Shown here in pieces: positions 29,816 through 51,768 of a stretch of 64,000 bases of DNA. The stretch covers positions 372,001 through 436,000 of the forward strand of contig NZ_JAEINV010000001.1 of NCBI RefSeq assembly GCF_016342705.1, read 5' to 3'. The notes beneath the pieces were generated by a model. That model was not told the DNA's origin. It was given only the letters and a program-made list of their open reading frames with translations, and ran no database searches. A program made the translations under genes and the position numbers. Every line of letters starts with the position of its first letter. The stretch's first letter is position 1. The stretch is from Lutibacter sp. Lineage in GTDB: Bacteria > Bacteroidota > Bacteroidia > Flavobacteriales > Flavobacteriaceae.

Positions 29816-29847
29816 TTGAATTATCATTAACGTTAATAATATATTTT

Positions 29848-30426
29848 ATGAAAAAAATCAATTTAACCTTTGCGCTTTTAGCAGTATCAGCACTTTTCAT
29901 TGTTTCTTGCAATGGGGGAGAAAAAAAACAAACAAGTGAAACTACAGCAACAGAAGTTGTTAAAACAGGACTTGGACAATCGGCTGTAAAAGATACAGTT
30001 TCAGCAGCAAACGTATTACAAGTTGCACAATCTTTAGATGATTTTAAAACATTGGTTGTTGCAGTTAAAGCAGCAGGTGTAGAAGATGCGCTAGTTAATA
30101 CAGGGCCATTAACAGTTTTTGCACCAGTAAATGCTGCATTTGATAAATTACCAGCAGGAACAGTGGAAGATTTATTAAAGCCTGAAAATAAATCGAAATT
30201 AGCAATGATTTTAAAAAATCACGTTGCACCAGCAAATTATCCTGACACTCAATTATCTAAAGAAGCAAAAAAAGGAAGAAAATTGTATATGGCTTCTGGC
30301 AATTATTTAGTAGTTGAAGAGAAAGAAGATGGTATTTATGTAGGTGGAACAAAAATATTAAAAACTGTTCAAGTAAGTAATGGTTGGATACATGTAATTG
30401 ATAATTTATTACTTCCGACAGAATAA
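29848..30426 (+). CDS. Fasciclin-domain lipoprotein, first gene of the nos operon
   Basis: 192 residues with signal peptide MKKINLTFALLAVSALFIVSC (lipobox, Cys21) and a low-complexity Thr/Glu linker before one fasciclin (FAS1) domain from about residue 60 (LKTLVVAVKAAGVED, then GPLTVFAPVNAAFDKLPAGT, the domain's H1 and core motif, and YLVVEEKEDGIYVGGTKILK). FAS1 domains mediate protein or matrix contacts; no cofactor site is seen. Its place before the cytochrome and nosZ, behind the operon promoter, suggests an envelope role in N2O respiration, but that is inference. Confidence 0.9.
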   Translation: MKKINLTFALLAVSALFIVSCNGGEKKQTSETTATEVVKTGLGQSAVKDTVSAANVLQVAQSLDDFKTLVVAVKAAGVEDALVNTGPLTVFAPVNAAFDKLPAGTVEDLLKPENKSKLAMILKNHVAPANYPDTQLSKEAKKGRKLYMASGNYLVVEEKEDGIYVGGTKILKTVQVSNGWIHVIDNLLLPTE

Positions 30427-30460
30427 TTAAATAAATCAAAAATTAAATAATAAGAGTAAC

Positions 30461-30928
30461 ATGAAATTAAAAGTATTTGTATTAGCTGGTATGGTGGCAT
30501 TAGTTGCAAGCTGTGGAAGTGATGGAAAAAAGGATGATAAATCTGCGCAACCACAAGAGGAAGTTAAAGAAGCAGTTGAAGTTGACCCAATGAAAGATAA
30601 AGGAATTGGACCAGTTAAAAGTATAACTTTAGGAGAAATTGATCAAGCAATGGCAGATCAAGGTCATGAATTGTTTAAAGCAAAGTGTTCAGCATGTCAT
30701 AAAGAAGATAAACGTTTTGTTGGGCCTGCTTTAGCAGGTGTAACAGAAAGACGTACTCCTGAATGGATTATGAATATGATTTTAAATCCTGAAGTAATGG
30801 TTGCTGAAAATCCAATTGCAAAACAATTATTGGCAGAATATTTATCTCCAATGGCAAATCAAAGTTTAACTGAGCAAGAAGCAAGGTTCGTATTAGAATA
30901 CTTCAGAACTTTAAAGGTTGCAGAATAA
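30461..30928 (+). CDS. Monohaem cytochrome c lipoprotein
   Basis: 155 residues. Signal peptide ends in ALVASC (Cys19), followed by an acidic and lysine-rich linker (to about 60), then one class I cytochrome domain: haem site CSACH (about residues 72-76), KRFVGPALAGV and the distal Met in YLSPMANQSLTEQE. Being lipid-anchored on the envelope and encoded directly before nosZ, it is the likely electron donor to NosZ, or a link between the quinol-oxidising complex and NosZ. 34 bases separate it from the fasciclin gene. Confidence 0.92.
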   Translation: MKLKVFVLAGMVALVASCGSDGKKDDKSAQPQEEVKEAVEVDPMKDKGIGPVKSITLGEIDQAMADQGHELFKAKCSACHKEDKRFVGPALAGVTERRTPEWIMNMILNPEVMVAENPIAKQLLAEYLSPMANQSLTEQEARFVLEYFRTLKVAE

Positions 30929-30973
30929 ACCTTCATAAGTAAAAAAGAAAACAACAAACAAACAAATAATAGT

Positions 30974-32950
30974 ATGAAAACAATTTTTAAATCTTTATTA
31001 GCATTAACAATAGTATCTACAATACTAAGTAGTTGTGGTAACGGGGGCGACAAAGGTAAGCAAGGAGCTTTATCAGGCTCTGCTGCAGAAAAAGTATATG
31101 TTGCTCCAGGTGAACACGATGAATTTTATGCATTTGTTTCTGGTGGATTTAGTGGGCAGTTAGCTGTTTACGGATTACCTTCTGGTCGTTTATTTAAAGT
31201 AATTCCAGTTTTTTCAGTAGATGCTGAAAAAGCGTATGGATTTAATGAAGAAACAAAACCAATGCTAAACACTTCTCACGGATTTATTCCTTGGGATGAT
31301 TCTCACCATCCAGACATTTCGCAAACAGCAGGTGAATTAGATGGTCGTTGGGTATTTATTAACGGAAATAATACACCGCGAATTGCAAAAATTGATTTAA
31401 CAACTTTTGAAACTACCGAGATTATTGAAATCCCGAATTCAGCAGGTAACCACAGTTCATCTTTCGTAACTGAAAATACAGAATATGTTGTTGCTGGTAC
31501 TCGTTTTTCTGTGCCTTATCCACAAAGAGATATGCCAATTAAAGAGTATAAGGGGAATTTTAAAGGAGCTTTAACTTTTATTTCTGTTGATCCAAAAGAT
31601 GGAACAATGGATATTAAGTTTCAAATTATGATGCCAGGATTTAATTATGATTTATCACATCCAGGAAGAGGAAAATCTCACGGATGGTTCTTCTTTACAA
31701 CCTATAATACTGAAGAAGCTAACTCGTTGTTAGAAGTAAATGCATCTCAAAACGATAAAGATTTTATTGCAGCAATTAACTGGAAAAAAATTGAAGAATA
31801 TGTGAATAATGGTGGTGGTACAAAAGCCCCAACAAACTATGCTCACAATGTGTATAGTGATGAAACACATAGTGCAACTTCAACAATGAAAAAAGAAATT
31901 TTAATTGTAAATCCTTCAGATGTACCTGGAGCAATTTATTTCTTGCCAACACCAAAATCTCCTCACGGTTGTGATGTTGATCCAACTGGTGAATATATTA
32001 TTGGAAATGGAAAATTAGCGGCAGAATTAACAGCACATTCATTTACAAAAATGTTAGCAGCTATTGAAGGTAAAAAGTTTGATGGTGAAGCTTATGGTAT
32101 TCCAATTTTAAAATATGAAGATATTTTAGGAGGAGTTGTGAAACAACCAGGTTTAGGCCCATTACATACTGAGTTTGATGGAAAAGGATATGCATATACA
32201 ACATTCTTTATTTCTTCAGAAGTTGTAAAATGGAAATTAGGAACTTGGGAAGTTATTGATAGAAAGCCAACATATTATTCTGTTGGTCACTTAATGATTC
32301 CTGGAGGAAATTCAAGAAAACCTTTTGGGAAGTACGTGTTAGCAATGAACAAAATTACTAAAGACCGATATATTCCTACTGGTCCAGAAGTAACGCAATC
32401 GGCTCAGTTATATGATATTACAGGTGAAAAAATGGAATTATTATTAGATTTCCCAACAATTGGAGAACCACATTATGCAGCAGGTATTCCAGCGGAATTA
32501 ATAAAAGAACGTTCTAAAAAAATATATAAATTAGAAGAAAATAAACATAAATATGTAGTCAAAACTGAAGCTGAAAGTAAAGTTGTTAGAACAGGAAATG
32601 AAGTACATATTTATATGACAATGATTCGCTCTCACTTTTCTCCTGATAATATTGAAGGTGTTCAAGTTGGGGATAAAGTATATTTCCACGTAACTAATTT
32701 AGAGCAAGACTATGATGTTCCTCATGGAATTGCAATGATTGGAGCGCAAACTTCAGAATTGTTAATTATGCCAGGACAAACTGAAACATTTGTTTGGGAA
32801 CCAAAACAAGTTGGAGTTTGGCCATTCTATTGTACAGATTTCTGTTCAGCATTACACCAAGAAATGCAAGGTTATGTGAGAGTTTCTCCAAAAGGATCAA
32901 ATGTTCCTGTAACTTACACACTTGATGGTGACGCAATAGGTGCAGAATAA
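30974..32950 (+). CDS. nosZ: Nitrous oxide reductase, clade II, lipoprotein form
   Basis: Copper enzyme that reduces N2O to N2. 658 residues. The CuA site is at the C-terminus: His584 (DVPHG) and C620-x3-C624-x3-H628-x2-M631 (FYCTDFCSALHQEM). CuZ histidines appear in DDSHHPD, GKSHGWFF, NYAHNVYS, SPHGCDVDPTG and LHTEFDGKGYAYTTFF. There is no twin-arginine signal; instead a Sec-type signal with lipobox ILSSC (Cys21), so this is the Sec-dependent clade II type and is probably membrane-anchored. No C-terminal haem domain, in contrast to Wolinella-type enzymes. Confidence 0.97.
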   Translation: MKTIFKSLLALTIVSTILSSCGNGGDKGKQGALSGSAAEKVYVAPGEHDEFYAFVSGGFSGQLAVYGLPSGRLFKVIPVFSVDAEKAYGFNEETKPMLNTSHGFIPWDDSHHPDISQTAGELDGRWVFINGNNTPRIAKIDLTTFETTEIIEIPNSAGNHSSSFVTENTEYVVAGTRFSVPYPQRDMPIKEYKGNFKGALTFISVDPKDGTMDIKFQIMMPGFNYDLSHPGRGKSHGWFFFTTYNTEEANSLLEVNASQNDKDFIAAINWKKIEEYVNNGGGTKAPTNYAHNVYSDETHSATSTMKKEILIVNPSDVPGAIYFLPTPKSPHGCDVDPTGEYIIGNGKLAAELTAHSFTKMLAAIEGKKFDGEAYGIPILKYEDILGGVVKQPGLGPLHTEFDGKGYAYTTFFISSEVVKWKLGTWEVIDRKPTYYSVGHLMIPGGNSRKPFGKYVLAMNKITKDRYIPTGPEVTQSAQLYDITGEKMELLLDFPTIGEPHYAAGIPAELIKERSKKIYKLEENKHKYVVKTEAESKVVRTGNEVHIYMTMIRSHFSPDNIEGVQVGDKVYFHVTNLEQDYDVPHGIAMIGAQTSELLIMPGQTETFVWEPKQVGVWPFYCTDFCSALHQEMQGYVRVSPKGSNVPVTYTLDGDAIGAE

Positions 32951-32982
32951 TATTCTTTTTTGATTGATTTTTAAAGGAAAAA

Positions 32983-33013
32983 AAACGGGCAAGAAATTTA
33001 AACTTGCCCGTTT
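32983..33013 (+). terminator. Hairpin after nosZ, weak terminator or processing signal
   Basis: Eleven-bp perfect stem (AAACGGGCAAG, 32983-32993, with 33003-33013) and a 9-base loop, but only three T follow, so termination may be partial. It lies 33 bases after nosZ in a 158-base gap, and would lower expression of the maturation genes relative to nosZ or protect the nosZ message. Confidence 0.6.
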
Positions 33014-33108
33014 CCAATAACAAAATAATTTTAAGAGTTACTTGTTCTAAAAAAAGTTTTAAAAAAACTTTCAGCAGATTTTTTATTAAAACTTAAAACA
33101 AAAAAACA

Positions 33109-33699
33109 ATGAAAAAATCTAAAATATTAATGATAATAGGTTCTCTGTTATTATTAGGACTGTTTGTGTTTCCACTTTGGAATATTACTTTAGAGGCACC
33201 TCAATATCCAATTCCTTTAGGTATGGATATTCATATTACTAAATTTGTTGATACTCATGAATTTGATATAAAAAACATCAATTTAATGAACCACTATGTA
33301 GGTATGCAATACATACCAGAAACTATTCCTGAATTTAAAATATTCCCTTGGGCAATTGGAATTATGACAGTACTTGGTGTTATAATTGGATTTTTTGGAA
33401 ATCATAAATTATTTTTAGTTTGGTTTATTGTAATGTGTATATTAGGAATTGCAGGAATGTATGATTTCTATTTATGGGAATATGATTATGGTCATAATTT
33501 AAGTCCTAAAGCAATTATGAATTTTAAAAACCCAGATGGTTCAGTTATGGGATTCCAACCACCTTTGTTCGGATCTAAAGATATTTTAAACTTTAAAGCA
33601 CATTCCTACCCAAGGTTGGGTGCTTATTTCATGTTTGTGGGAATGTTTTTAACTTTTACAGCCTTTTTTGTTGGGAAGAAAGAGGTGAATTCTAAATAA
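33109..33699 (+). CDS. Four-helix membrane protein of the nos operon
   Basis: 196 residues with helices at about 6-25, 84-104, 106-126 and 170-190 and an exported loop after helix 1 (residues 27-80) rich in His, Met and Tyr (GMDIHITKFVDTHEFD, NHYVGMQY). A second loop (EYDYGHNLSPKAIMNFKNPD) also has His and Met. The position directly after nosZ recalls NosB, the membrane protein of unknown function in clade II nos clusters, but I cannot show homology. The potential metal ligands suggest copper handling or quinol contact; this is inference. Confidence 0.8.
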   Translation: MKKSKILMIIGSLLLLGLFVFPLWNITLEAPQYPIPLGMDIHITKFVDTHEFDIKNINLMNHYVGMQYIPETIPEFKIFPWAIGIMTVLGVIIGFFGNHKLFLVWFIVMCILGIAGMYDFYLWEYDYGHNLSPKAIMNFKNPDGSVMGFQPPLFGSKDILNFKAHSYPRLGAYFMFVGMFLTFTAFFVGKKEVNSK

Positions 33700-33720
33700 C
33701 GTTTATTAATTTATATGTTA

Positions 33721-33754
33721 AAACGAATATAAAAAACAATCTATATTCGTTTTA
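33721..33754 (+). terminator. Hairpin before nosL
   Basis: Perfect 12-bp inverted repeat (AAAACGAATATA at 33721-33732 with 33743-33754), 10-base loop, right arm ending in TTTT. It sits 22 bases after the membrane-protein stop. It ends exactly where the first in-frame ATG of the nosL frame (33755) begins, which argues for the later start at 33788. It may be a partial terminator. Confidence 0.6.
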
Positions 33755-33787
33755 ATGTATATTTATAATCTAAAAAAATCGAAAATA

Positions 33788-34234
33788 ATGAGAACTAATT
33801 TCTACAAACCAATTATTGGTTTAGGTATTTTATTGCTTACAATTTCGTGTAAAGTTGAACCAGAAGCTATTGATTATGGAAAAGATCAATGTAGTTTTTG
33901 TGTAATGAATATTGTTGATAAAACACACGCTACACAATACGTAACTAAAAAAGGAAAACAGTTTAAATTTGATGCCATAGAATGTATGGTAAATGATTTA
34001 GTTGAAAAAAATGAAGAAGATTTAGCAATTTTACTGGTTTCAAATTATGCCAATCCTGGAGAAATGATAGATGCTAAAACGGCGTCCTATTTAATAAGTA
34101 CAGCCATAAAAAGTCCGATGGGCGCAAACCTTTCTGGAGTTTCTTCCATAGAAAAAGCGGAAGAATTACAGCAAAAATATTCTGGAGAGATTTATACTTG
34201 GCAGCAACTTAAACAAAGACTTTCAGATAAATAA
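33788..34234 (+). CDS. nosL: NosL copper-chaperone lipoprotein
   Basis: Supplies copper to NosZ in the envelope. The start at 33788 gives MRTNFYKPIIGLGILLLTISC, a clean lipoprotein signal (Cys21), whereas the ATG at 33755 would add eleven non-signal residues next to a hairpin. The copper motif is CSFCVMNI (about residues 32-39), with a further Cys in FDAIECMV and YSGEIYTWQQL near the end, typical of NosL. 148 residues. It is 1 base before nosD. Confidence 0.93.
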   Translation: MRTNFYKPIIGLGILLLTISCKVEPEAIDYGKDQCSFCVMNIVDKTHATQYVTKKGKQFKFDAIECMVNDLVEKNEEDLAILLVSNYANPGEMIDAKTASYLISTAIKSPMGANLSGVSSIEKAEELQQKYSGEIYTWQQLKQRLSDK

Positions 34235-34235
34235 A

Positions 34236-35474
34236 ATGAAAAAAGTCACCTTATTTCTTTTACTTTTCAGTGTTACCTTTCTTTATGCAAAAAGAATTGA
34301 GGTTTGTAAAAATTGTGAAATTTTAACAATTAAAAAGGCTATGGAATTGGCTGAGGATGGTGATGAAATTTTTATAAAAAAAGGCATATATAAAGAAAAT
34401 GATATTGAAGTAAATAAAGCAGTTACAATTTCTGGTGAAAAAGGAACAATAATTGATGGTGGTTTTATCAGTGGTGTTTTGCATATTACATCAGATAATT
34501 TTGTGTTGAAAAATATTAAAATTATTAATGTAGGTGTAAGTTATACCAAAGATTTTGCAGCTGTAAAAGTTGTAAAATGCAAAAATTTCATCATAGAAAA
34601 TATTGAGCTAAATCAAATATTTTTCGGAATATTAATAGAAAAATCACATTACGGAAAAATTATTGGCAACAAACTTTCAAGTACGGCTAAAGATGAAGCA
34701 AATTCTGGAAACGGAATTCATATTTGGCACAGTTCCAATATGATAGTGGATAGTAATGAGGTTTTTGGAATGCGTGATGGCATTTATTTTGAATTTGTTA
34801 CAGAAAGTAAGATTCATAACAATAGGAGCCATCACAATGTAAGATACGGTCTTCATTTTATGTTTTCAAACAATGACACTTATTATAACAATGAATTTAA
34901 AAATAATGGAGCAGGTGTTGCTGTAATGTTTTCAAAATTCATTACTATGTATCAAAATAAATTCTTAAACAATTGGGGATCTGCATCTTATGGATTGTTG
35001 TTAAAAGAAATTTATGATACTCAGATTTACGATAATCTTTTTCAGGAAAATACAATTGGAATAAAGGGTGAAGGTTGCACACGCATAAATTATAAAAACA
35101 ATACTTTTTTGCGAAACGGTTGGGCAATTAAAATTGCAGGTGCTTGTTATACTAATGTTTTTGAAAAAAATGATTTTATGCATAACTCTTTGGATTTGGC
35201 ATACAATACAAAAGTGAACGACAATAAATTTGAAAATAATCACTGGAGCGAATATACCGGGTACGATTTGGATAAGGACGGTGTGGGAGATATACCTTAT
35301 AGGCCTGTTAAATTGTTTTCTTATATAGTAAATAGAACTCCAGAAGCTTTGGTTTTATTAAGAAGTTTATTTGTTGATATCATCAATTTTTCAGAGAAAG
35401 TTTCGCCTGTTTTTACACCTGATGATTTGATGGATAAAAAACCTATAATGAATAAAATAAATGATAGATTTTAA
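34236..35474 (+). CDS. nosD: NosD periplasmic beta-helix protein
   Basis: Copper-site assembly protein of NosZ, working with the NosFY transporter. 412 residues: signal peptide to about residue 18, then a right-handed parallel beta helix with repeated asparagine-rich turns (for example NNRSHHNVRYGLHFMFSNND and YDNLFQENTIGIKGEG) of the CASH type, and the NosD C-terminus NHWSEYTGYDLDKDGVGDIPY. Length is normal. The end of the gene overlaps nosF by 14 bases. Confidence 0.94.
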   Translation: MKKVTLFLLLFSVTFLYAKRIEVCKNCEILTIKKAMELAEDGDEIFIKKGIYKENDIEVNKAVTISGEKGTIIDGGFISGVLHITSDNFVLKNIKIINVGVSYTKDFAAVKVVKCKNFIIENIELNQIFFGILIEKSHYGKIIGNKLSSTAKDEANSGNGIHIWHSSNMIVDSNEVFGMRDGIYFEFVTESKIHNNRSHHNVRYGLHFMFSNNDTYYNNEFKNNGAGVAVMFSKFITMYQNKFLNNWGSASYGLLLKEIYDTQIYDNLFQENTIGIKGEGCTRINYKNNTFLRNGWAIKIAGACYTNVFEKNDFMHNSLDLAYNTKVNDNKFENNHWSEYTGYDLDKDGVGDIPYRPVKLFSYIVNRTPEALVLLRSLFVDIINFSEKVSPVFTPDDLMDKKPIMNKINDRF

Positions 35475-36168
35475 AAATTTACATAAAAAATTTGGGAAAC
35501 TAGTTGTTCTCAATGGTCTTGATTTAAATATAAAAGAAGGTGGAATTTTCGCTATTTTAGGGCCAAATGGTTCAGGGAAAACTACTTTAATTAAATGTTT
35601 ATTGGGAATGGTTATTCCAAATGAAGGATCTATTGCTTATAAAGGTAAAAGTGTTTTGCGTAAATGGGATTATAGAAACGACTTAAATTATTTACCGCAA
35701 ATTGCTAATTTCCCACCAAACCTTACAGTTGTTGAACTAATTGAAATGGTTAAAAATTTAAGACCTAAACAATCTTATGAACAAGACTTAATCAAGCTTT
35801 TTGGATTAACAGATTCACTTCAAAAAAAATTAGGAAATCTTTCTGGAGGTACAAAACAAAAGGTAAATATTGTACTCACCTTTATGTTTGATAGTAACTT
35901 AATAATTTTAGATGAACCAACAAATGGGCTAGATCCAATTGCTTTAATTCATTTAAAAGAATTAATTCTGAGAGAAAAAGCAAAAGGAAAAACTATTTTA
36001 ATTACTACACATATTATGAGTTTTGTTGATGAAATGGCCGATGAAATTGTGTTTATTTTAGATGGTAAAATTTACTTTAAAGGAAGTGTAGATGCGTTGA
36101 AAAAACAAACAAATAATGACAATTTAGAACACGCTATAGCTAATTTAATAGCCAAACAATATGCTTAA
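35461..36168 (+). CDS. nosF: NosF ABC transporter ATPase
   Basis: ATPase of the NosDFY complex needed for CuZ maturation. 235 residues with Walker A GPNGSGKT (about 34-41), signature LSGGTKQKV (about 126-134), Walker B LIILDEPTNGLDP (about 147-159) and the switch His in TTHIMSF. The start lies inside the nosD tail and its own end overlaps nosY by 8 bases, so the three are translationally coupled. Confidence 0.95.
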   Translation: MIDFKNLHKKFGKLVVLNGLDLNIKEGGIFAILGPNGSGKTTLIKCLLGMVIPNEGSIAYKGKSVLRKWDYRNDLNYLPQIANFPPNLTVVELIEMVKNLRPKQSYEQDLIKLFGLTDSLQKKLGNLSGGTKQKVNIVLTFMFDSNLIILDEPTNGLDPIALIHLKELILREKAKGKTILITTHIMSFVDEMADEIVFILDGKIYFKGSVDALKKQTNNDNLEHAIANLIAKQYA

Positions 36169-39907: not shown

Positions 39908-42040
39908 TTAATCTTGTTCTAAATATAGTTCCATTATTTTAATGGCCGATTCAGAAATAACAGTACCAGGACCAAAAATGGCAGCTACTTTTCTTTCTAA
40001 TAAATAATCATAATCTTGCGCTGGAATAACTCCACCTGCAAATACCATAATATCTGGTCTTCCTAATTTTTCTAATTCACCAATTAATTGAGGAATTAAT
40101 GTTTTATGACCAGCAGCTAAACTAGATGCTCCAACAAAATGCACATCATTTTCAATTGCTTGTTTTGCAACTTCTTCAGGAGTTTGGAATAATGATCCCA
40201 TATCTACATCAAAACCTAAATCAGCAAAACTAGAAGCTACTACTTTAGCACCTCTATCGTGCCCATCTTGACCCATTTTTGCAATCATTACTCTTGGTCT
40301 TCTACCTTCAATTTCAGCAAATTTATCTGCTAATTTTTGAGCTCTTGCAAAAGTATCATCGTTATTTACTTCTTTTCCGTACACACCACTTATTAATTTA
40401 GTATCAGCTTTATGTCTTCCAAAATGAACTTCTAAAGCATCAGATATTTCACCTAAAGTAGCAAAATTTTCAGCAGCTTCAACAGCTAAAGCTAATAAAT
40501 TTCCTGTACCAGTTTCAGCACATTTAGATAATGCAGCAATAGTTGCATCTACAACAGCTTGATCTCTATTTGCTCTTAATTTTTTCAAACGTTCAATTTG
40601 AGAATCTCTAACAACAGTATTATCAACTTCTAAAATTTCTATATTAGATTTTTCAGTTGTTTTAAACTTGTTAACACCTACTAAAATATCTTGACAAGAA
40701 TCTAAACGAGCTTGTTTACGAGCAGAAGCTTCTTCAATACGTAATTTTGGAACTCCAGTTTCAATAGCTTTTGCCATTCCACCTAATTCTTCAACTTCTT
40801 CAATTAATTTCCAAGCTTTTTTAGCAATTTCTTGTGTTAAATATTCAACATAATAAGAACCAGCCCAAGGATCAACAGATTTGGTCATTTGGGTTTCATC
40901 TTGAATAAATATTTGTGTATTACGAGCAATACGAGCAGAGAAATCTGTTGGTAAAGCAATTGCTTCATCTAAAGCATTTGTGTGTAAAGATTGTGTTCCT
41001 CCTAAAGTAGCAGCCATTGCTTCAATACAAGTACGAGCTACGTTGTTAAAAGGATCTTGTTCACTTAAACTCCATCCTGATGTTTGACTATGCGTACGCA
41101 AAGCCATAGATTTTGGATTTGTTGGATTGAAAGATTTTATAATTTTTGCCCAAAGCATACGTGCAGCACGCATTTTTGCAATTTCCATAAAGTGATTCAT
41201 TCCTACCGCCCAGAAGAAAGATAAACGAGGTGCGAATTCATCAATTTTTAAACCAGAAGCTAATCCAGTTCTAATGTATTCCATACCATCGGCTAGAGTG
41301 TAAGCCAACTCAATATCTGCAGTTGCACCCGCTTCTTGCATATGGTAACCACTAATTGAAATAGAGTTAAACTTAGGCATATTTTTAGTGGTGTAATCAA
41401 AAATATCACCAATAATTTTCATGGAAGGTAATGGTGGATAAATATAGGTGTTACGCACCATAAATTCTTTTAAAATATCATTCTGAATAGTTCCGGAAAG
41501 TTTATCTAAAGAAACACCTTGTTTTCTTGCAGCAGCAATATAAAAAGCCATAATAGGTAGTACAGCACCATTCATTGTCATAGAAACAGACATTTTATCT
41601 AATGGAATTTGATCAAACAAAATTTCCATATCTAAAATAGAATCTATGGCAACACCAGCTTTACCAACATCACCAGTTACTCGTGGATGATCAGAATCGT
41701 ATCCACGGTGTGTAGCTAAATCAAAAGCAACAGATAATCCTTTTTGACCAGCAGCAAGGTTTCTTCTGTAAAATGCATTTGATTCTTCAGCAGTTGAAAA
41801 ACCTGCATATTGTCTAATTGTCCAAGGACGCATAGCGTACATTGCACTATAAGGGCCTCTTAAAAAAGGCGGAACACCAGCTGCATAACCTAAATGTTCT
41901 GCTTCTGAAATATCTTCTTTTGTAAAATGTTTTTTTACGGATATTCCTTCAGGAGTATTCCAAACGTCTTGATTCTCTGAAGTTGCAGCAGTTTGTTTAA
42001 CGGCTGAATTTATTTTTATATCTGAAAAATCTGGTTTCAT
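39908..42040 (-). CDS. mutB: Methylmalonyl-CoA mutase large (B12-binding) subunit
   Basis: Adenosylcobalamin enzyme that interconverts succinyl-CoA and (R)-methylmalonyl-CoA. 710 residues: N-terminal TIM barrel with [20 protein letters not shown] (about 71-90, CoA tunnel) and [15 protein letters not shown]-type active-site segment ([20 protein letters not shown], about 358-377), then the cobalamin domain with DGHDRG (about residue 594) and [12 protein letters not shown]. It lies 5 bases after the small-subunit gene and ends the operon. Confidence 0.97.
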
Positions 42041-42045
42041 ACTTC

Positions 42046-43836
42046 TTAAGATTTAATTGTTTTTTGAACTTTACTTTGAATGCTTGAAATTGTTGTAATA
42101 ACATCAGATCTCAAGTTTACGCATCCATCTAATCCAGCTGCAGTTAATTCATCCATATTAGTTGGAGCTCCTGCAATTAATAAAACTTTTGTGCTATTTA
42201 AAGCTCTAAATGTTTTTACAAATGCAAGTGCAGTTTCATTGTAATCTTCATCAGAACTACACATTACAACTACATTAGAATCTGATTTCGCGCTTAATTC
42301 AGCAGCTTTTTCAGCGCTTTCAAAGCTTTTTTCTTGTAATACATTGTATCCACTAACTCCAATAAAATCGTAAGCAAAAGCAGCTCTTGCTTTACGCATA
42401 GTTAAGTTTCCATAACTAGATAATTCTACTATTGGACGTTTTTTTGTTGCGGTAACAAACTCTTCAGTAGTTTTTCTAATAGCTTCAATTTCTAAAGAAG
42501 CTCTTCTAGGTGTTAATACTTTTGGGTTTGCAATTTCTCCTGCTGAAAGTATGCTAGAATCTAGCTTTTCCATGAGGTTAGGGTATTTGTTAATACCAAC
42601 CATTGGAGTTCTACGTTGACTTATTAATTTTAATTTTTGTAAACGAATTTCAGCAATTTGTTGTTGAATTGTTTCGTTTTGAAAGGCGGTATAAAAACCT
42701 CCTTCAGCTTCAATAGCTTTAAAAAGTTCTAATGCTTTTTCAGCTATTTTTACGGAAACTTCTTCTATATAATAAGATCCATCAACTGGATTTGAAACTT
42801 TACCAAAGTAAGATTCTTCTCTTAAAATAGTTGTGATGTTTCCTGCAATTCTGCTTGAAAAATCTGATGGGTTTTTAAATTCTTTATCGTAAGCATCAAT
42901 TAAAACACCATCTACATTTCCTAATATTGCAGACATTGCTTCTGTTGTACAACGTAATAAATTAGTTTCAGCATCAGTTACTGATTTGCTCCAAATTGAA
43001 GTTTTAGCAGTAATTGTGTTTGAAAAATCTACAACACCATATTTAGCAGCTACTTCAGTTAATAAGTTATTGAAAGCTCTAAATTTACCAATTTCAACAA
43101 AATATTCTAAACCTATTGCTAGTTGAACGTTTAAATTGTTGAAAATATCTTGAGCTGTAATACCTTTTTCTGTTAATTTTTCAACTAAAAAAACCAAAGA
43201 ATTTAACGTGTATGCAACTTCTTGAACTTGGTTTGCACCTGAATCTAAATATTCAGTTCCGGAAATTGTGATGGCTTTAAAATTAGAGAAATTGGCAGTT
43301 AATTTTACTAATTCTGCAGTAATTTCAACTTGGCTAGCATCAAATGAACCTGTAGTTACATAGTTAGAAATGATACCTGTATTTATAAAACCTCTTAAGT
43401 TTTTACCTTTTGCAAAAGCAACTAAATCTGTTGTAAAAGCAACTGCATTAGATGTTAATTTAAAAGAAACAGTTATTTCATTTAAATCTAATCCGTTTAA
43501 AAGGGTAGCGGCAGATACATTTTCTTTTAATTCAAAAATGATTCCGTTTATACCTTCTTCAATAGCTTTTGCAGCTAATTTATTTCCATTTTCAGCTGTT
43601 GTAACAACAATGCTTCTGTAATTTACTAATGATTGAGAATTTTCACCAGTATTTTTAAGACAGTTAATGGTGTCTTCTGCGGTGTAAAAAGGTTCAATAT
43701 TAATTTGACTCAAGTTTTTCCAAACTAAGGTTTTGTTGTAATCTGCACCTTTTAAATCTGCGGTTACTCTTTCCATCCAATCTTGTTTTGAAACAGGACT
43801 GAATTCTGAAAAAAGTGATTTGTTTTTATCGTTCAT
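42046..43836 (-). CDS. mutA: Methylmalonyl-CoA mutase small subunit
   Basis: Non-catalytic partner of the large subunit. 596 residues with the same barrel and Rossmann domains ([27 protein letters not shown], about 300-326) but no DxHxxG cobalamin motif in the C-terminal domain, as expected for this subunit. It begins 70 bases after the CoA-transferase gene, with a hairpin in between, and is translated closely with the large subunit. Confidence 0.95.
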
Positions 43837-43863
43837 AATATTTTATATTAATTGAGATATAAT

Positions 43864-43898
43864 AAATTGCTAATCTTTTTTAAAAAGATCAGCAATTT
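43864..43898 (-). terminator. Hairpin between CoA-transferase and mutase genes
   Basis: Seventeen-position inverted repeat with one mismatch and a 1-base centre (AAATTGCTaATCTTTTT with its complement). The T-run on the minus strand is weak. It lies 9 bases after the CoA-transferase stop, inside the apparent operon, so it may cause partial termination. Confidence 0.5.
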
Positions 43899-43906
43899 AA
43901 ATAAAA

Positions 43907-45196
43907 TTATTTAACCATTAAGCTGCTTCCAAATCTTTCGAAAATTGCTTTATCAAGGTCTTCTTGATGGTTTGGATGTGCAATATTTCTTAATGATTGT
44001 GCACGTTGTTTTAAGTTTTTACCAAATAATTCTGCAACACCATATTCTGTAGCCACAAATCTTGCATGTGCACGAGTTGTTACCACACCAGCACCTTGTT
44101 TTAACATAGGTACAATTTTGGAAACTCCTTTTTGAGTTGCAGAGGTAATAGCAATAATTGGTTTTCCTCCAACAGATAATGCTGCTCCACGCATAAAGTC
44201 CATTTGACCTCCAACACCTGAGAACATTCTTGGTCCGATAGAATCTGCACAAACCTGACCAGTAAGGTCAATTTCGATAGCTGAATTAATTGCTGTTACT
44301 TTAGGGTTTTGACGAATAACTGCTGTGTCGTTTACATACGCAATATCTCTCATCTCTATTTCAGGATTGTTATCCATGAAATCGTATAATCTTCTTGTTC
44401 CCATTGCAAATCCCGATACAATTTTGTAAGGATTTGTTTTCTTTTGTGAGCCGTTTACTACACCTTTTTCAACTAAATCTACTAAGCCTTCAGAAAACAT
44501 TTCAGTATGTATTCCTAAATTTTTATGGTTTGTTAAAAAAGTTAGTACAGCATTTGGAATACCTCCAATTCCCATTTGCAATGTTGCTCCATCTTCAATA
44601 ATGGCAGCAATGTTTTTACCAATTGCTTTTTCTTCTTCTGAAGGAGTTACAAATTTCATTTCATGAATTTCTTCAACAACTTCAACACATGCGGTGAAAT
44701 TTCTAAAATGAACTTGTGCATCACCAAAAGTACGTGGCATACGTGGGTTTATTTGTGCAATAACAGTTTTACCTTGTTCAACACCTGCAAGTACAATATC
44801 AACAGAAACACCTAATGAACAAAATCCGTGTTCATCTGGAGGTGAAACGTTTACCAATACCACATCTAAAGGCATATGCCCTAGACGGAATAAACTTGGA
44901 ATATCACTTAAGAAAATTGGAATATAATCTACAGTTTCTCCAACCATTTTTCTAACATTTCCTCCAATAAAAAATGCACTAGTATGGAAACTTTCTCTTA
45001 ATTCAGGTGCTACATAACCACATTCACCTTCAGTGTGTAAATGACAAATTTCTACTCCTTTTAATTCAGGACCACGTGCAACCATGGCTTTAATTAAAGT
45101 TTGAGGAGTGGCAGAACCACCTTGAATCAAAACACGATCTCCTGATTTAATCAATTTTACAGCGTCTTGGGCTGTCATCATATTCGGTATTTTCAT
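43907..45196 (-). CDS. Acetyl-CoA hydrolase/CoA-transferase family protein
   Basis: 429-residue class I CoA-transferase of the 4-hydroxybutyrate/butyryl-CoA:acetate type. The catalytic Glu is in INSAIEIDLTGQV (about residues 248-260), followed by GVGGQMDFMRGA and ISATQKGVSKIVP-like loop. In an operon with methylmalonyl-CoA enzymes the likely job is propionyl-CoA:acetate or propionyl-CoA:succinate CoA transfer, closing the propionate cycle without ATP loss; this is inferred from context, since the fold alone does not give the substrate. 30 bases after the Na+-pump beta gene. Confidence 0.88.
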   Translation of the reverse strand: MKIPNMMTAQDAVKLIKSGDRVLIQGGSATPQTLIKAMVARGPELKGVEICHLHTEGECGYVAPELRESFHTSAFFIGGNVRKMVGETVDYIPIFLSDIPSLFRLGHMPLDVVLVNVSPPDEHGFCSLGVSVDIVLAGVEQGKTVIAQINPRMPRTFGDAQVHFRNFTACVEVVEEIHEMKFVTPSEEEKAIGKNIAAIIEDGATLQMGIGGIPNAVLTFLTNHKNLGIHTEMFSEGLVDLVEKGVVNGSQKKTNPYKIVSGFAMGTRRLYDFMDNNPEIEMRDIAYVNDTAVIRQNPKVTAINSAIEIDLTGQVCADSIGPRMFSGVGGQMDFMRGAALSVGGKPIIAITSATQKGVSKIVPMLKQGAGVVTTRAHARFVATEYGVAELFGKNLKQRAQSLRNIAHPNHQEDLDKAIFERFGSSLMVK

Positions 45197-45226
45197 TTTT
45201 TTAATTTTAATTCTATTTTTTAATAT

Positions 45227-46552
45227 TTATCCTAAGAAACTTAAAATGATACCAGCGGCAATTGCAGAGCCAATAACTCCTGCAACATTTGGTGCCATAG
45301 CATGCATTAGTAAGTAATTGTTTTTATCGGCTTTTAATCCTTCAGCATGTACAACTCTTGCACTATCTGGTACTGCGGAAACACCAGCGGCACCAATTAA
45401 CGGGTTTATTTTTTCATCACTTTTTAAGAACAAGTTCATAAATTTGGCAAATAGTAAACCTCCCATAGTTGCAATAACAAATGAAATTGCACCTAATCCA
45501 AAAATTAACATAGAATCTTTTGTAATAAAGATATCTGCTTGTGTTGAAGCACCAACGGTAACTCCTAAAAGAATGGTTACAATATCTATTAATTTGGTAC
45601 GTGCTGTATCAGCTAATCTTTCAGTTCTTCCAGATTCTTTTAATAAGTTACCAAAAAATAACATTCCTAATAAAGGCAATGCACTTGGTGAAATAAAAGT
45701 AGTTAACAATAAAGCAACAATAGGGAAAATCATTTTTTCCTTTTGAGAAACCGCTCTAGGTGGTTTCATTCTAATTAATCGCTCTTTTTTTGATGTTAGT
45801 AACTTCATAATTGGAGGCTGAATTACCGGTACTAATGCCATATATGAATATGCAGCAATGGCAATTGGTCCAATTAAGTTTTTTACTGTAGTGCCATCAG
45901 GTAAAATATTAATACCATTTGCCAATTTTGATGAAAGGAAAATTGCTGTTGGTCCATCTGCACCACCAATAATACCAATTGCACCAGCTTCAGGAAGATT
46001 AAATCCTAAATATAAAGCACCTAAAAATGTTGCAAATACACCAATTTGTGCTGCAGCACCTAATAACATTAATTTTGGATTTGCAATTAACGATGAGAAA
46101 TCTGTCATTGCTCCAATTCCTAAGAAAATTAATGGAGGGTAAATTCCTTTTACAACACCAAAATATAGGTAATTTAAAACTGATCCTGTTTCATAAATAC
46201 CAGTTTGATTGCCAGCTACAAATGGAATATTACCAAGAATAACACCTGTTCCAATTGGAATTAATAAAAGGGGTTCATAATCAAATTTAATTCCAAGGTA
46301 AATAAATACAATTCCAATTAAAATCATAATTAAATTACCACCTGCAGCATTTGCAAATCCTGTATATGAATAAAATTGTTTAATTCCATCAAACGCTTCT
46401 TGTATAAAACTTTCTGAAGAACTTTCTTCAACTTGTTCTACAGTAGAAACAGGTAATGTGCTTTGTGCATTTGAATTAGTATTTATCCCAAGTGCTGGTC
46501 TAATAAATACCAATAAGGATAATACAGAAAATATTATAAATAGTTTTTTCAT
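45227..46552 (-). CDS. Na+-pumping decarboxylase beta subunit
   Basis: Membrane channel subunit of methylmalonyl-CoA (or oxaloacetate) decarboxylase that exports Na+ on decarboxylation of carboxybiotin. 441 residues with about 10 helices and the conserved Asp motif IGIIGGADGPTAIFLSSKLA (about 191-210). The first 65 residues are an extra segment: a signal-like helix (MKKLFIIFSVLSLLVF) and a Ser/Gln/Glu-rich stretch, not part of the usual subunit. Assigned to the methylmalonyl-CoA branch because of neighbours. Confidence 0.94.
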   Translation of the reverse strand: MKKLFIIFSVLSLLVFIRPALGINTNSNAQSTLPVSTVEQVEESSSESFIQEAFDGIKQFYSYTGFANAAGGNLIMILIGIVFIYLGIKFDYEPLLLIPIGTGVILGNIPFVAGNQTGIYETGSVLNYLYFGVVKGIYPPLIFLGIGAMTDFSSLIANPKLMLLGAAAQIGVFATFLGALYLGFNLPEAGAIGIIGGADGPTAIFLSSKLANGINILPDGTTVKNLIGPIAIAAYSYMALVPVIQPPIMKLLTSKKERLIRMKPPRAVSQKEKMIFPIVALLLTTFISPSALPLLGMLFFGNLLKESGRTERLADTARTKLIDIVTILLGVTVGASTQADIFITKDSMLIFGLGAISFVIATMGGLLFAKFMNLFLKSDEKINPLIGAAGVSAVPDSARVVHAEGLKADKNNYLLMHAMAPNVAGVIGSAIAAGIILSFLG

Positions 46553-46607
46553 GTTTTTTCTTTTTATGTGTTATAGCTTATTAATTACGCTATAACTCTT
46601 AAAGTTC

Positions 46608-47027
46608 CTATGCTAGTTCAATCATTACTTCATTTTGTAAAACTTGTTGACCAATTTTTACTTGAATAGCTGTAACTTTTCCTGCTTTTTCTGAAGCTAT
46701 ATTGTTTTCCATTTTCATGGCCTCTAAAACTAGAAGTCTATCGCCAATTTTAACTTCATCACCAATATTAACATCAATGGATAATACCGTACCCGGAATT
46801 GGAGCCACAATTTTTGTGTTTGATGAGCTTGGATTAACTTTTAGTAATTCTGCAGGTCTTTTTGATGCAGATCTAACTAAAGTAGGAGTTTTGGAAACCT
46901 TAACTTCTTCTTTTAGTTTAACAGAATATGCAGTTCCGTTTACTTCCAGATCAATAATATTATCTTCGTGAGAAACAATTTTAACATTGTAATTGTTATC
47001 GTATATTCTAAATTTGAAATTTTTCAT
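46608..47027 (-). CDS. Biotin carrier subunit of the Na+-pumping decarboxylase
   Basis: 139 residues. The C-terminal 70 form a biotinyl domain with the biotin lysine in VLEAMKMENNIA (Lys about 108); the N-terminal half is a small domain linked by a Ser/Pro/Asn-rich hinge (KRPAELLKVNPSSSNTKI). It carries the carboxyl group from the carboxyltransferase to the beta subunit. 55 bases before the beta gene. Confidence 0.93.
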   Translation of the reverse strand: MKNFKFRIYDNNYNVKIVSHEDNIIDLEVNGTAYSVKLKEEVKVSKTPTLVRSASKRPAELLKVNPSSSNTKIVAPIPGTVLSIDVNIGDEVKIGDRLLVLEAMKMENNIASEKAGKVTAIQVKIGQQVLQNEVMIELA

Positions 47028-47083
47028 TTTTTATTTTTGTTTATAGTTAAAGGTTTTATCCTTACATGCTAATAATCATTAAT

Positions 47084-47446
47084 TTATCTAAGGTTATTAT
47101 GCGTTCCGTATATTTTTGAACTCCAAGGCGAATATAATTTTCTAGCTTGCTTTATTGTAAGTACAGCATTTTCTTCATCGTGTTGTTCTTTTAAATACAA
47201 ATGTATTGCTGTTGATATTGCAGCCGCTATTTCACCTGTAAATTGTTCATTAACATTGGGTGAAATATCTTTAATCTTTTTATCTCTCCCTTTGGTAATA
47301 ATTTTATAGATGTATAGCAATACTGGTAATCCAAATTTAAAAAAAGCGGTTAGCAATAATAAGGCACCAAATACAATTAATAAACCAGTAATTAAGATTA
47401 CGTAACCTTCACTTATTTGGTCGATGTATAATTTCATGTATAACAT
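47084..47446 (-). CDS. OadG-type gamma subunit of the Na+-pumping decarboxylase
   Basis: 120 residues with one N-terminal membrane helix (GYVILITGLLIVFGALLLLTAFF, about 14-36) and a soluble charged C-terminal part ending ARKLYSPWSSKIYG, which matches the gamma subunits of Bacteroidota pumps. It anchors the complex and, in relatives, binds zinc. Its ATG overlaps the carboxyltransferase stop (TAATG). Confidence 0.85.
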   Translation of the reverse strand: MLYMKLYIDQISEGYVILITGLLIVFGALLLLTAFFKFGLPVLLYIYKIITKGRDKKIKDISPNVNEQFTGEIAAAISTAIHLYLKEQHDEENAVLTIKQARKLYSPWSSKIYGTHNNLR

Positions 47447-49005
47447 TATAGTGGAATATTTGAGTGTTTTTTAGGTGGGTTAACTTCTTTTTTATTTGCT
47501 AATAACTCTAACCCTCTAATAATTCTAAAACGAGTATTTCTTGGCTCAATTACATCATCAATAAAACCATATTTTGCAGCAACATAAGGGTTGGCAAATT
47601 TATCGTTGTACTCATCTTCTTTTTTGTCGATGTATTCTTGTTTTTCCTCAGCATCCTCAATTTTACGAATGTTAGAACCTTCTAATACTTCTACAGCTCC
47701 TTTAGCTCCCATTACTGCAATTTCAGCTGTTGGCCAAGCGTAGTTTAAATCTCCACGTAATTGTTTACAACTCATTACATCATGTGCTCCACCATAAGAT
47801 TTGCGCAAAGTAATAGTAACTTTAGGGACAGTTGCTTCACCATAAGCAAAAAGTAATTTTGCTCCATGAAGAATAATACCTCCATATTCTTGACCAGTAC
47901 CTGGTAAGAAACCTGGAACGTCCACAAGAGTTACAATAGGAATATTAAAGGCATCGCAAAAACGAACAAACCTTGCAGCTTTTCTTGAAGCCTCAATATC
48001 TAAAACACCTGCGTAGTATTTTGGTTGGTTGGCAACAATACCAACTGAACGTCCATTAAAACGAGCAAAACCAACACAAATATTACGTGCATAATTTCTG
48101 TGAACTTCTGTAAATTCACCATTATCTACAAGTACTGAAATCACATCAACAATATCATATGGTTGATTTGCGTTTTCAGGAATCATTTCATTTAAAATAT
48201 CATCTAATCTATCAATTGGATCATCACAAACAATTGATGGTGGCTCTTCTAAATTATTTGAAGGTAGGTAACTCATTAATTTTCTGATTAATAATAAGTT
48301 TTCTTCATCATTTTCAGCAAGGAAATGTGAAACTCCAGATTTTGTTGAATGAATTTGAGCACCTCCTAATTGTTCTGTTGTAACAACTTCACCAGTAACA
48401 GTTTGTACCACTTTTGGGCCTGTAACAAACATATAACTTGTTTGGTCTGTCATTATAGTAAAATCAGTTAATGCTGGAGAATAAACGGCTCCCCCGGCAC
48501 AAGGTCCTAAAATTGAGGAAATTTGAGGAATTACTCCAGAAGCCATAATGTTTCTTTGGAAAATTTCGGCATAACCAGCTAAAGATCTAACACCTTCTTG
48601 AATACGAGCTCCACCGCTATCATTTAATCCAATAACAGGAACTCCAATTTTCATTGCCATATCCATAACCTTACATATTTTTAAGGCATATGTTTCAGAC
48701 AATGAACCTCCAAATACAGTAAAATCTTGCGAGAAAACGTACACAATTCTTCCATCAATAGTTCCATGACCGGTAACAACACCATCGGAAAGATAAATTT
48801 GTTTATCTAAACCAAATGACTTAGTTCTATGTGTTACAAACATGTCAAATTCTTCAAAACTATTATCATCTAAAAGAATGTCAATTCTTTCACGAGCAGT
48901 AAGTTTCCCTTTTGCGTGTTGCGAATCAATTCTTTTTTCTCCTCCACCTAATTTTGCTTCGGCTCTTTTTTGAATTAATTCATTGATTTTATCTTGATTT
49001 GCCAT
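47446..49005 (-). CDS. mmdA: Methylmalonyl-CoA decarboxylase/propionyl-CoA carboxylase carboxyltransferase subunit
   Basis: 519-residue biotin-dependent carboxyltransferase with the two crotonase-like halves. The acyl-CoA and carboxybiotin oxyanion sites are [20 protein letters not shown] (about 121-140) with [16 protein letters not shown], and in the second half [23 protein letters not shown] (about 357-379). No biotin carboxylase gene is next to it, and the channel and carrier genes are, so a decarboxylase pump is the better reading than a carboxylase. Confidence 0.94.
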
Positions 49006-49029: not shown

Positions 49030-49434
49030 TTATTTTTTTGAACAAAGTTCAGTTAACACTCCGTGTGTTGATTTTGGGTGTAAAAACCCAATATTTAAAC
49101 CTTCAGCTCCTTTTCTAGAAACTTTATCTACTAGTGCAACACCTCTTTCTTCGGCCAGTTTTAGTGCTTCTGTGGCATTATCAACGGCAAAAGCAATATG
49201 GTGGATTCCTTGTCCTTTTTTCTCAATAAATTTACCAATTGGTCCATCTGGAGAAGTGCTTTCTAATAATTCAATTTTTGTGGTACCTACCAAAAAAAAG
49301 GCTGTTTTCACTTTCTGATCAACAACCTCTTCTATTGAGTAGCATTTCATTCCTAAAACCTCTTCATAATATTTTATTGATTCTTCTAAGTTGTTTACAG
49401 CTATTCCAATGTGCTCTATATGTGAAATATTCAT
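49030..49434 (-). CDS. mce: Methylmalonyl-CoA epimerase
   Basis: Interconverts the S and R forms of methylmalonyl-CoA, joining the decarboxylase to the mutase. 134-residue vicinal-oxygen-chelate protein with the metal His of IEHIGIAVNNLEES (His about 8), the Glu/His of GQGIHHIAFAVDN (about 78-90) and the conserved HPKSTHGVLTELC end (about 118-130). First gene of the eight-gene operon; 24 bases before mmdA. Confidence 0.95.
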   Translation of the reverse strand: MNISHIEHIGIAVNNLEESIKYYEEVLGMKCYSIEEVVDQKVKTAFFLVGTTKIELLESTSPDGPIGKFIEKKGQGIHHIAFAVDNATEALKLAEERGVALVDKVSRKGAEGLNIGFLHPKSTHGVLTELCSKK

Positions 49435-49513
49435 AATTATATAAAATTTAGTGTTATTTTTTACTTTTTTCTAAAGGAGAAGTGAAGTTTTTTACCTTTT
49501 CTAGTTTAGATAA

Positions 49514-49560
49514 CAAAATTAGAGCATAGTAAAAGTTAAAAATATGATAGATGTCATATT
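49514..49560 (-). promoter_or_regulatory. Promoter and Crp/Fnr-like palindrome of the methylmalonyl-CoA operon
   Basis: On the minus strand the perfect palindrome AATATGA-N6-TCATATT (49560-49541) is followed by 19 bases and TAATTTTG (49521-49514), about 80 bases before mce. The palindrome type, the 3' arm and the 19-base distance are the same as at the nos promoter. The distal TTG is missing here, as expected for a promoter that depends on an activator. Confidence 0.6.
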
Positions 49561-49661
49561 TGCCCTAAAACTACTAAAACGTTTTAGTGATTTCATCTTG
49601 GCTTTTTGAACTATTTTTTAACATTTATATTCTTAATTTTGGTGGTTTGAAACTAATAATA

Positions 49662-49699
49662 AAATAAAAAACCTCAATATTAATCGAGGTTCTTTATTT
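49662..49699 (-). terminator. Terminator of the threonine dehydrogenase gene
   Basis: Fourteen-position stem with one mismatch (AACCTC/GAGGTT core flanked by A and T tracts) and a 10-base loop. It overlaps the last bases of the gene's stop codon at 49698-49700. Confidence 0.6.
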
Positions 49700-51408: not shown

Positions 51409-51768
51409 TTAATAAGTGTTTTTAGTTAGTTCTTTCGCTTCAAATTCTTCAATTTTAAGTACTTTATTATTATCATATTCAATTTTAGTCACTTTATCTT
51501 TGTTCCAGTAGGTCCAAACACCAACTTTTGCACCATTATTGTAAGTTGCTAAACATTTTCTAGATCCATCTCCATTATAACTTTCCCAAGAAGCGTGTAA
51601 TTTGCCTTCTTTTGTGTAAAACCCATGTTGCATTATTGCGCCATTCTCATAATATAAAGTAATTTCTTGTAAATCGCCTTTAGTTTCGGTTTTTGGCAAA
51701 TATTTTGTTTGTGAAAATACTGAAACAGAAAATAGTAATACTGCTAAAATTAATAGAAATTTTTTCAT
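51409..51768 (-). CDS. Secreted MORN-like repeat protein
   Basis: 119 residues with signal peptide MKKFLLILAVLLFSVSVFSQ and three or four MORN_2-type repeats (EITLYYENGAIMQHGFYTKE, LHASWESYNGDGSRKCLATY, NNGAKVGVWTYWNKD). Such proteins in Bacteroidota are named after the YwqK antitoxin family, but nothing here suggests a toxin. Role unknown, likely envelope or extracellular. Confidence 0.78.
   Translation of the reverse strand: MKKFLLILAVLLFSVSVFSQTKYLPKTETKGDLQEITLYYENGAIMQHGFYTKEGKLHASWESYNGDGSRKCLATYNNGAKVGVWTYWNKDKVTKIEYDNNKVLKIEEFEAKELTKNTY

Follow-up and report, generated by a model that had tools for sequence, protein, structure and literature searches.

A predicted FNR-type operator shared by nitrous oxide reduction and methylmalonyl-CoA decarboxylase operons of Flavobacteriaceae

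A palindrome that stands before two operons in a 64,000-nucleotide stretch of DNA from Lutibacter sp. (the window) probably acts as the binding site for a Crp/Fnr-family activator of the FNR type. The features of the sequence place it at -41.5 of sigma-A promoters, where it would serve a broad low-oxygen regulon that includes both the nos operon for N2O reduction and the mce operon for Na+-pumping propionate metabolism. The motif, its spacing, the list of its targets and its conservation are documented directly in the genome sequences; what reads the motif, and in response to what signal, is argued below from these sequences and from comparison with known systems.

The Sites and Their Promoters

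The operons and the neighboring gene are:

49030 to 49434, minus strand: mce, methylmalonyl-CoA epimerase, first gene of its operon (TIGR03081 above cut-off)
39908 to 49005, minus strand: remainder of the mce operon, with a carboxyltransferase (mmdA-like), an oadG-like gamma subunit, a biotin carrier, the beta subunit of a Na+-translocating decarboxylase, a CoA-transferase and two methylmalonyl-CoA mutase subunits
29848 to 36168, plus strand: nos cluster, with a fasciclin-domain protein, a cytochrome c-like protein, Sec-type NosZ, two ORFs without a family, NosD and an ABC ATPase
29008 to 29607, minus strand: Thioredoxin_9-family gene divergent from nos, whose homologues in relatives bear a site of their own

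In the mce operon, the beta subunit (TIGR01109) and the mutase (NF006944) are also recognized above cut-off, while the matches to the mmdA, oadG, CoA-transferase and small mutase subunit models lie under their curated cut-offs. The genes from mce to the mutase subunits lie on the same strand with short gaps and probably form one transcript.

The promoter elements are:

49541 to 49560, minus strand: predicted Crp/Fnr-type operator AATATGACATCTATCATATT of the mce promoter, AATATGA-N6-TCATATT, centre at -41.5
49514 to 49521, minus strand: -7 box TAATTTTG of the mce promoter, sigma-A, at -12 to -5 following PMC9723704
29769 to 29788, plus strand: the same predicted operator ATTATGATTTTTATCATATT before the nos operon, ATTATGA-N6-TCATATT, centre at -41.5
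29808 to 29815, plus strand: -7 box TACATTTG of the nos promoter, positioned following PMC9723704
51791 to 51834, minus strand: third unit, consisting of the palindrome, 22 nt and TAAATTTG, before the small ORF 51409-51768, with the same geometry as at mce and nos
49574 to 49587, plus strand: a second, perfect palindrome CTAAAACGTTTTAG, exactly 30 bp upstream of the FNR-type site of mce, centre at about -71.5

A first-pass annotation of this DNA had described the palindromes at mce and nos, their arms, the six-base interval between the arms, and a distance of 19 nt to the box; all of these details agree with the window sequence, in which the long form of the palindrome lies 19 nt from the box at both operons. 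In the shorter form used below, both promoters have ATGAY-N4-RTCAT with a TAnnTTTG box 22 nt on. A transcription start site map of F. psychrophilum places the sigma-A box TAnnTTTG at -12 to -5 (PMC9723704). Given this position and the spacer of 22 nt, the centre of the dyad would fall at -41.5, and transcription would start at 49509 for mce and at 29820 for nos. The -41.5 position is the class II position, from which Crp/Fnr proteins activate transcription.

The ORF that follows the third unit (51409-51768) encodes a small secreted protein of 119 aa, whose similarities to DUF6705 and MORN are both under the Pfam cut-offs. The second palindrome at mce, CTAAAACGTTTTAG, could serve as a further operator, centred at about -71.5. 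It is present in several Lutibacter-type mce promoters, and among the 260 loci compared, its exact form is confined to mce promoters, namely those of three overlapping host copies (L003, L028, L059) and six relatives (L069, L075, L077, L079, L080, L082). A separate hairpin-like stretch, noted by eye at about 49670-49691, could end the gene upstream of the mce site.

Tests Against Chance

The genome to which the window belongs (the host genome; 3.63 Mb in 35 contigs) has five matches to AWTATGA-N6-TCATAWT, three of them inside the window, versus one match to the reversed-pattern control. One of these three, an exact palindrome at 33479-33498, was treated as a chance occurrence; it lies inside ORF 33109-33699 and is without a box. 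Because in the listed sites ATGA is followed by a pyrimidine and TCAT is preceded by a purine, the motif was sharpened to ATGAY-N4-RTCAT, which occurs 49 times in the host genome versus 18 for the reversed control. When a TAnnTTTG box was required 19-25 nt downstream, 15 sites were found versus 0 for the reversed pattern. Widening the spacer to 5-35 yielded 20 matches and one control match, with 15 of the 20 at spacers of 21-23. The spacer is 22 in 10 of the 15 sites, 21 in four and 23 in one; with the box position taken from PMC9723704, these sites keep the fixed class II position (-41.5) that characterizes a Crp/Fnr regulon. Eight random genomes from an order-2 Markov model, matched in size to the host and in composition to the window, held 9-18 palindromes and 0-2 combinations of palindrome and box each. 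A degenerate search motif, WWTATGA-N6-TCATAWW with one mismatch, was discarded as too noisy (118 matches versus 66 for controls).

The refined motif was picked after the host-genome sites had been viewed, and consequently the other 148 genomes of the family provide the fair independent test. A scan of 149 genomes, host included, at spacers of 20-24 returned 686 sites versus 15 for the reversed pattern, with at least one site in 121 of the genomes; without the host, the count is 671 versus 15.

A mere coincidence of two AT-rich palindromes has therefore a negligible probability. A palindrome with up to three mismatches is frequent in the window (84 matches, 61.8 expected), as such an explanation would have it, but the counts for the host and for the family contradict it, as do the two conserved footprints at mce and nos described below. 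The earlier judgment that the joint match at the two operons is unlikely by chance thus holds, and the sites are far above chance in the host genome and in the 148 others.

Conservation in Relatives

The mce loci were compared in the best 80 of at least 249 relatives, among which the nearest named locus is that of Lutibacter maritimus (97% identity). Twenty of these 80 loci (L069-L087 and L092) were called flavobacterial-type from titles and scores. When at most one mismatch in the palindrome, at most one in the box and a spacer of 21-23 were allowed, the unit was found in 19 of the 20, L073 alone being without it, and in none with the reversed control. In 13 of the 20, the unit has no mismatch at all, and every one of these has a spacer of 22. 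Only 3 of the other 60 loci have the unit (reversed control, 0). The distance from the palindrome to the start codon ranges from 66 to 133 nt across loci. In the 19 rows, palindrome and box carry 1.4 bits per column versus 0.5 in the spacer, 0.5 in the 30 nt upstream and 0.3 downstream, values that favor the motif by construction because the rows were picked by a motif match. Several of the Lutibacter rows are close relatives; those of Maribacter, Formosa, Winogradskyella, Confluentibacter and Mangrovimonas are not.

Matches to NosZ were found in 208 of 397 genomes, and conservation of the nos site was scored in the best-scoring 30 of these 208. The unit is exact in 26 of the 30 and present with one box mismatch in one more, always with a spacer of 22. 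In these 27 loci, it lies 562-1243 nt upstream of the NosZ frame, and the reversed control gave 0. Three of the 30 loci (L231, L232, L237) are without it.

A Low-Oxygen Set of Targets

The first-pass annotation, which had proposed a regulon that probably responds to oxygen or NO, had expected a scan of the genome to lead to anaerobic or respiratory genes. Such genes follow eight of the 15 host sites, which stand before nos, the mce-mmd-mut operon, a norCB-like pair, pflB, feoAB, a ccoI-like ATPase gene, ccoNO and the pyruvate phosphate dikinase gene ppdK. The other seven sites stand before secreted, outer-membrane or unknown genes: ORF 51409-51768, a rhodanese, a FadL-like porin, a Phenol_MetA_deg-like gene, a DUF2971 gene and two genes without a Pfam match. 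The norCB-like pair consists of a cytochrome c gene and a COX1-type gene to which NCBIfam gave no name, and it is read as norCB because of its order, size and sequence; the heavy-metal P-type ATPase is read as ccoI because of its place. At ccoNO, the site precedes a 67-aa ORF without a family, which is followed by ccoNO and ccoP. An Rrf2-family regulator gene (L194 2957-3421) sits between tryptophanase and the norCB-like pair, and an Rrf2-like gene with its own FNR-type site was seen by eye in two relatives (L211, L221).

Targets were also named in seven relatives. Three of these (G143, G130 and G101; 21 sites) have only the receiver-Crp fusion protein described below, and four (G082, G145, G107 and G059; 28/29 sites) have only the Fnr candidate; one or two representatives of the main target types were confirmed by Pfam or NCBIfam, and the rest were named by eye. 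Overall, a site precedes ccoNO in six of the seven genomes, hemN in five, a nos-linked cytochrome c gene in five and nadA in four. In the fusion-only genomes, sites lie before ccoNO, nadA, nos-linked cytochrome c and universal-stress-like proteins (2/3 each) and before hemN, Thioredoxin_9 and a hibernation factor (1/3 each), the remaining targets being permease, YceI-like, TonB-type, oxidoreductase and unknown genes. In the Fnr-only genomes, they lie before ccoNO and hemN (4/4 each), nos-linked cytochrome c and Thioredoxin_9 (3/4 each), nadA, a norC-like gene and an Rrf2-like gene (2/4 each), and a hibernation factor, phosphate acetyltransferase and a ccoI-like gene (1/4 each), with others unknown or varied.

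Genes of micro-oxic and anaerobic metabolism, by which an FNR-type low-oxygen regulon is recognized, are consequently prominent both in the host (8/15 sites) and, as ccoNO, hemN and nadA, in the relatives. The regulon proposed at the outset to join the nos and mce operons is upheld by their shared sites and conserved spacing, but it is not specific to N2O and propionate; the two operons belong to a much wider, family-wide regulon of the FNR type.

The presence of nos and the norCB-like pair among the targets might also suggest a regulator of the DNR/NnrR type that senses NO rather than oxygen, and in G082 and G145 an Rrf2-like gene, identified by eye and divergent from the nos-linked cytochrome c gene, is preceded by a site. 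Nevertheless, NO sensing is unlikely, as most of the low-oxygen targets (ccoNO, hemN, pflB, nadA, feoAB) have no role with nitrogen oxides, and the candidate regulator retains cysteines at three of the FNR cluster positions.

The Fnr Candidate

Among 11 cNMP-binding matches in the host genome, the best candidate for the regulator is the following.

G000:C26:46401-47084: Fnr candidate L008, 228 aa, adjoining the ccoI-like gene and ccoNO; the promoter region that separates L008 from the ccoI-like gene carries a site

Its PF00027 (cNMP_binding) and PF13545 (HTH_Crp) domains, both above cut-off, are those of a Crp/Fnr regulator. Other Crp-family proteins of the host (L012-L016) differ, as judged by eye, in their recognition helices.

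In FNR, the recognition helix is defined by E209, S212 and R213. The helix of L008 reads T-E-S-A-I-R versus V-E-T-I-S-R in FNR; in an alignment of 31 rows, Ile replaces Ser in every row, and Glu and Arg are retained in 28. Ser212 of FNR contacts the first T of TTGA, and an Ile at this position would therefore fit the A of ATGA. In agreement with this, the host genome scan points to the use of ATGAY-N4-RTCAT in place of the operator of FNR proper, TTGAT-N4-ATCAA: the canonical TTGAY-N4-RTCAA with a box in the same geometry gave 0 sites in the host genome and 1 in the control.

The cluster ligands of FNR are C20, C23, C29 and C122. In solved FNR chains (5cvr, 5e44 and others, described as FNR type regulator and originating from Aliivibrio fischeri), three of the four cluster cysteines align with C4, C7 and C106 of L008, and the candidate has no cysteine at the C29 position. 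C4 and C7 are present in 31 of 31 rows, and C106 and an extra cysteine, C53, in 28 of 31, in an alignment that holds the host protein twice and has three rows that are partly gapped or misaligned. As a guess, C53 replaces the missing Cys29.

An Fnr orthologue was found in 18 of the 19 searched genomes that have mce loci (L081 left out, and the match in G159 cut by a contig end); of the 18 searched genomes that carry the mce site, 17 have one. A Mangrovimonas genome (L087) has only a fusion-type match, though its mce site is exact. Four of the 149 genomes (G026, G100, G123, G144) have Fnr but no site at the stringency of the search. Read in the direction of the Fnr gene, the palindrome that separates it from the ccoI-like gene is again followed by a TAnnTTTG box, here at a spacer of 32 (G000:C26:47119-47172), which possibly reflects autoregulation of another geometry, or chance.

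A Possible Second Reader

Three host proteins fuse a receiver to a Crp-type domain, and each adjoins a PAS histidine kinase. The pairs of kinase and fusion are:

L191, 4808-8039: PAS histidine kinase and receiver-Crp fusion
L192, 5437-8674: PAS histidine kinase and receiver-Crp fusion
L193, 5208-7429: PAS histidine kinase and receiver-Crp fusion

At least two of the three pairs are followed by a universal stress protein gene. Relatives of the fusion were found in 66 of the 149 genomes; in G061, G071, G110, G121, G134 and G156, the fusion and Fnr genes share a strand and are about 1 kb apart.

Presence was scored at E <= 1e-50 for Fnr and E <= 1e-60 for the fusion, cut-offs set after or while viewing the values. 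Genomes absent from the listed matches were counted as being without the gene, and such absences may be false because no more than 14 candidates per genome were scored in the search for the fusion. With kinship among the 149 genomes ignored, the mean number of sites per genome is 3.98 with Fnr only (n=53), 4.63 with the fusion only (n=30), 8.81 with both (n=36) and 0.63 with neither (n=30). For genomes of at least 2.5 Mb, the corresponding means are 4.11 (n=47), 4.82 (n=28), 8.81 (n=36) and 0.55 (n=11). A least-squares fit to the number of sites, which likewise ignores kinship, assigns +4.43 to the fusion (t 8.1), +3.64 to Fnr (t 6.2) and +0.1 to genome size (t 0.3). Three genomes (G048, G147, G086) have neither gene yet carry 2-7 sites; for two of the three, completeness is just 82% and 73%.

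Thus, the sites may be read by Fnr, by the receiver-Crp fusion, or by both, and the overlap between the target sets of fusion-only and Fnr-only genomes suggests that either protein could drive the one regulon. It is conceivable, if somewhat doubtful, that the sites are read mainly by the fusions, under the control of their PAS histidine kinases, rather than by Fnr; the FixL/FixJ/FixK pathway would then be collapsed into one protein. The number of sites does climb with the presence of the fusion when Fnr and genome size are accounted for, and the fusion-only genomes carry sites before ccoNO, nadA and hemN. A kinase-like ORF with H-box and G-box motifs adjoins the fusion in 11 of 11 loci of relatives and in 3 of 3 host loci, and Pfam confirms PAS, HisKA and HATPase domains for the three host kinases. 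Furthermore, the fusion helix reads TESLIR or TETLIR in 7 of the 11 relatives' loci, these being the ones where the search pattern matched (no match was obtained in 4 of the 12 loci L179-L190, of which L179 is the host), and two host fusions have TESLIR and TETFIR. However, the helix of the third host fusion (L007) is KETLAR; Fnr-only genomes, 53 in number, bear sites too; it is Fnr, not the fusion, that adjoins the ccoI-like gene and ccoNO in the host; and the statistics that favor the fusion are subject to the neglect of kinship and the limit of 14 candidates noted above.

Comparison With Known Systems

Within the same superfamily, a cAMP- or sugar-responsive regulon like that of BT4338 in Bacteroides (also named Cur or MalR) might be considered, and BT4338 is a Bacteroidota Crp-family protein whose palindrome also begins with TATG. 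Moreover, pflBA belongs to the BT4338 regulon (PMC3878776), and a Crp/Fnr homologue of Flavobacteriales has been predicted to sense carbon (PMC8510549). Even so, a carbon-responsive regulon is very improbable: the motif of BT4338 is TATGTTnTAnAACATA, and its targets are mostly sugar-utilisation genes, not the low-oxygen set, whereas the sites studied here, when compared with that motif, are TATGAY-N4-RTCATA-like.

The preferred, FNR-type reading finds its nearest parallel in the FNR regulon of Proteobacteria (E. coli FNR, Pseudomonas Anr, Bradyrhizobium FixK2), which has the same Crp/Fnr fold and the same N6 between the conserved TGA and TCA. Proteobacterial FNR-type regulators also use the class II position of -41.5, as in the flavobacterial sites. 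The proteobacterial targets include hemN, listed for Anr (PMC6588701), and nosRZ, listed for FixK2 (PMC5582078). In contrast, in the flavobacterial system the half-site is ATGAY rather than TTGAT and Ile occupies the place of Ser212; the promoter box is TAnnTTTG, Cys53 is an extra conserved cysteine, Cys29 is missing, and a methylmalonyl-CoA decarboxylase operon is among the targets. The FixL-FixJ-FixK cascade is likewise similar, having a PAS histidine kinase, a receiver and Crp-type DNA binding on cbb3 genes. It differs in that the receiver and Crp domains form one polypeptide in the flavobacterial fusion. In Nitrosophilus labii, which has a clade II nosZ, Crp/Fnr sites have been predicted ahead of napA, norE and nosB, with their first base 48-49 nt upstream of the respective start; there, unlike here, the motif is TTGA-N6-TCAA, the nosZ sites overlap the predicted start, and the available text makes no mention of a propionate operon (PMC11539149).

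The first-pass annotation knew of no description of a link between nos and the propionate operon; a literature search, as far as the texts were available, likewise found none, either of this link or of a flavobacterial FNR regulon. An FNR-type regulon as such is already known. The half-site, the set of cysteines, the second reader and the membership of the propionate operon appear, within the texts available, to be variations not found described. Judged by its features, the flavobacterial regulon would work like that of FNR, though it departs from the strict FNR motif and ligand set.

Proposed Mechanism

Taken together, these findings lead to a model in which an Fnr bearing an Fe-S cluster would bind ATGAY-N4-RTCAT when oxygen is low, and the dimer at -41.5 would contact RNA polymerase in the class II fashion, resulting in activation. 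Bound Fnr would then switch on micro-oxic respiration by the cbb3 oxidase, the reduction of NO and N2O, ferrous iron uptake, pyruvate formate-lyase and the succinate-to-propionate operon. The products of the mce operon would convert succinyl-CoA to methylmalonyl-CoA and this to propionyl-CoA and CO2, with Na+ pumping by the decarboxylase conserving energy; a comparable Na+-pumping fermentation of succinate to propionate is that of Propionigenium. The nos operon and the norCB-like pair would dispose of electrons on nitrogen oxides. If one low-oxygen switch governs both, the N2O operon (respiration) and the propionate operon (fermentation) would be parallel outputs for the disposal of electrons. 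In addition, these operators are probably targeted by the receiver-Crp fusion when it is phosphorylated with the help of a PAS histidine kinase.

A fuller form of this model would have two inputs converge on one class of operator, namely Fnr as an Fe-S sensor with rearranged cysteines and the kinase-controlled fusion, the latter acting alone where Fnr is undetectable, and would make propionate fermentation a standing partner of N2O respiration. This version is tentative, and we give it slightly less than an even chance.

The physiology reported so far agrees with the model in part. The cbb3 oxidase of F. psychrophilum is reported to be upregulated on oxygen limitation, in a paper whose main text has no word beginning with Fnr, Crp or palindrom (PMC9723704). 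According to an account of cultured Lutibacter and Maribacter, the latter with N2O reduction genes, both release propionate and succinate under anoxia (PMC10939381). In the same account, both acids are formed under oxic conditions too, negligible fatty acids are produced after 2 days of anoxia, and Maribacter does not grow without oxygen (PMC10939381); consequently, the propionate phenotype is in agreement with the model but not specific to it.

Implications

In permeable sediments, Flavobacteriaceae belong to the dominant facultative anaerobes (PMC10939381). A nosZ gene is frequent in the family as searched, with a match above the cut-off in 175 of 397 genomes. The rule that ATGAY-N4-RTCAT stands 22 nt before TAnnTTTG predicts which genes Flavobacteriaceae switch on without oxygen, and thus their N2O uptake and fermentation may be foreseen from sequence. 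Furthermore, a low-oxygen regulon would give a reason for the presence of a Na+-pumping succinate-to-propionate operon in Flavobacteriaceae.
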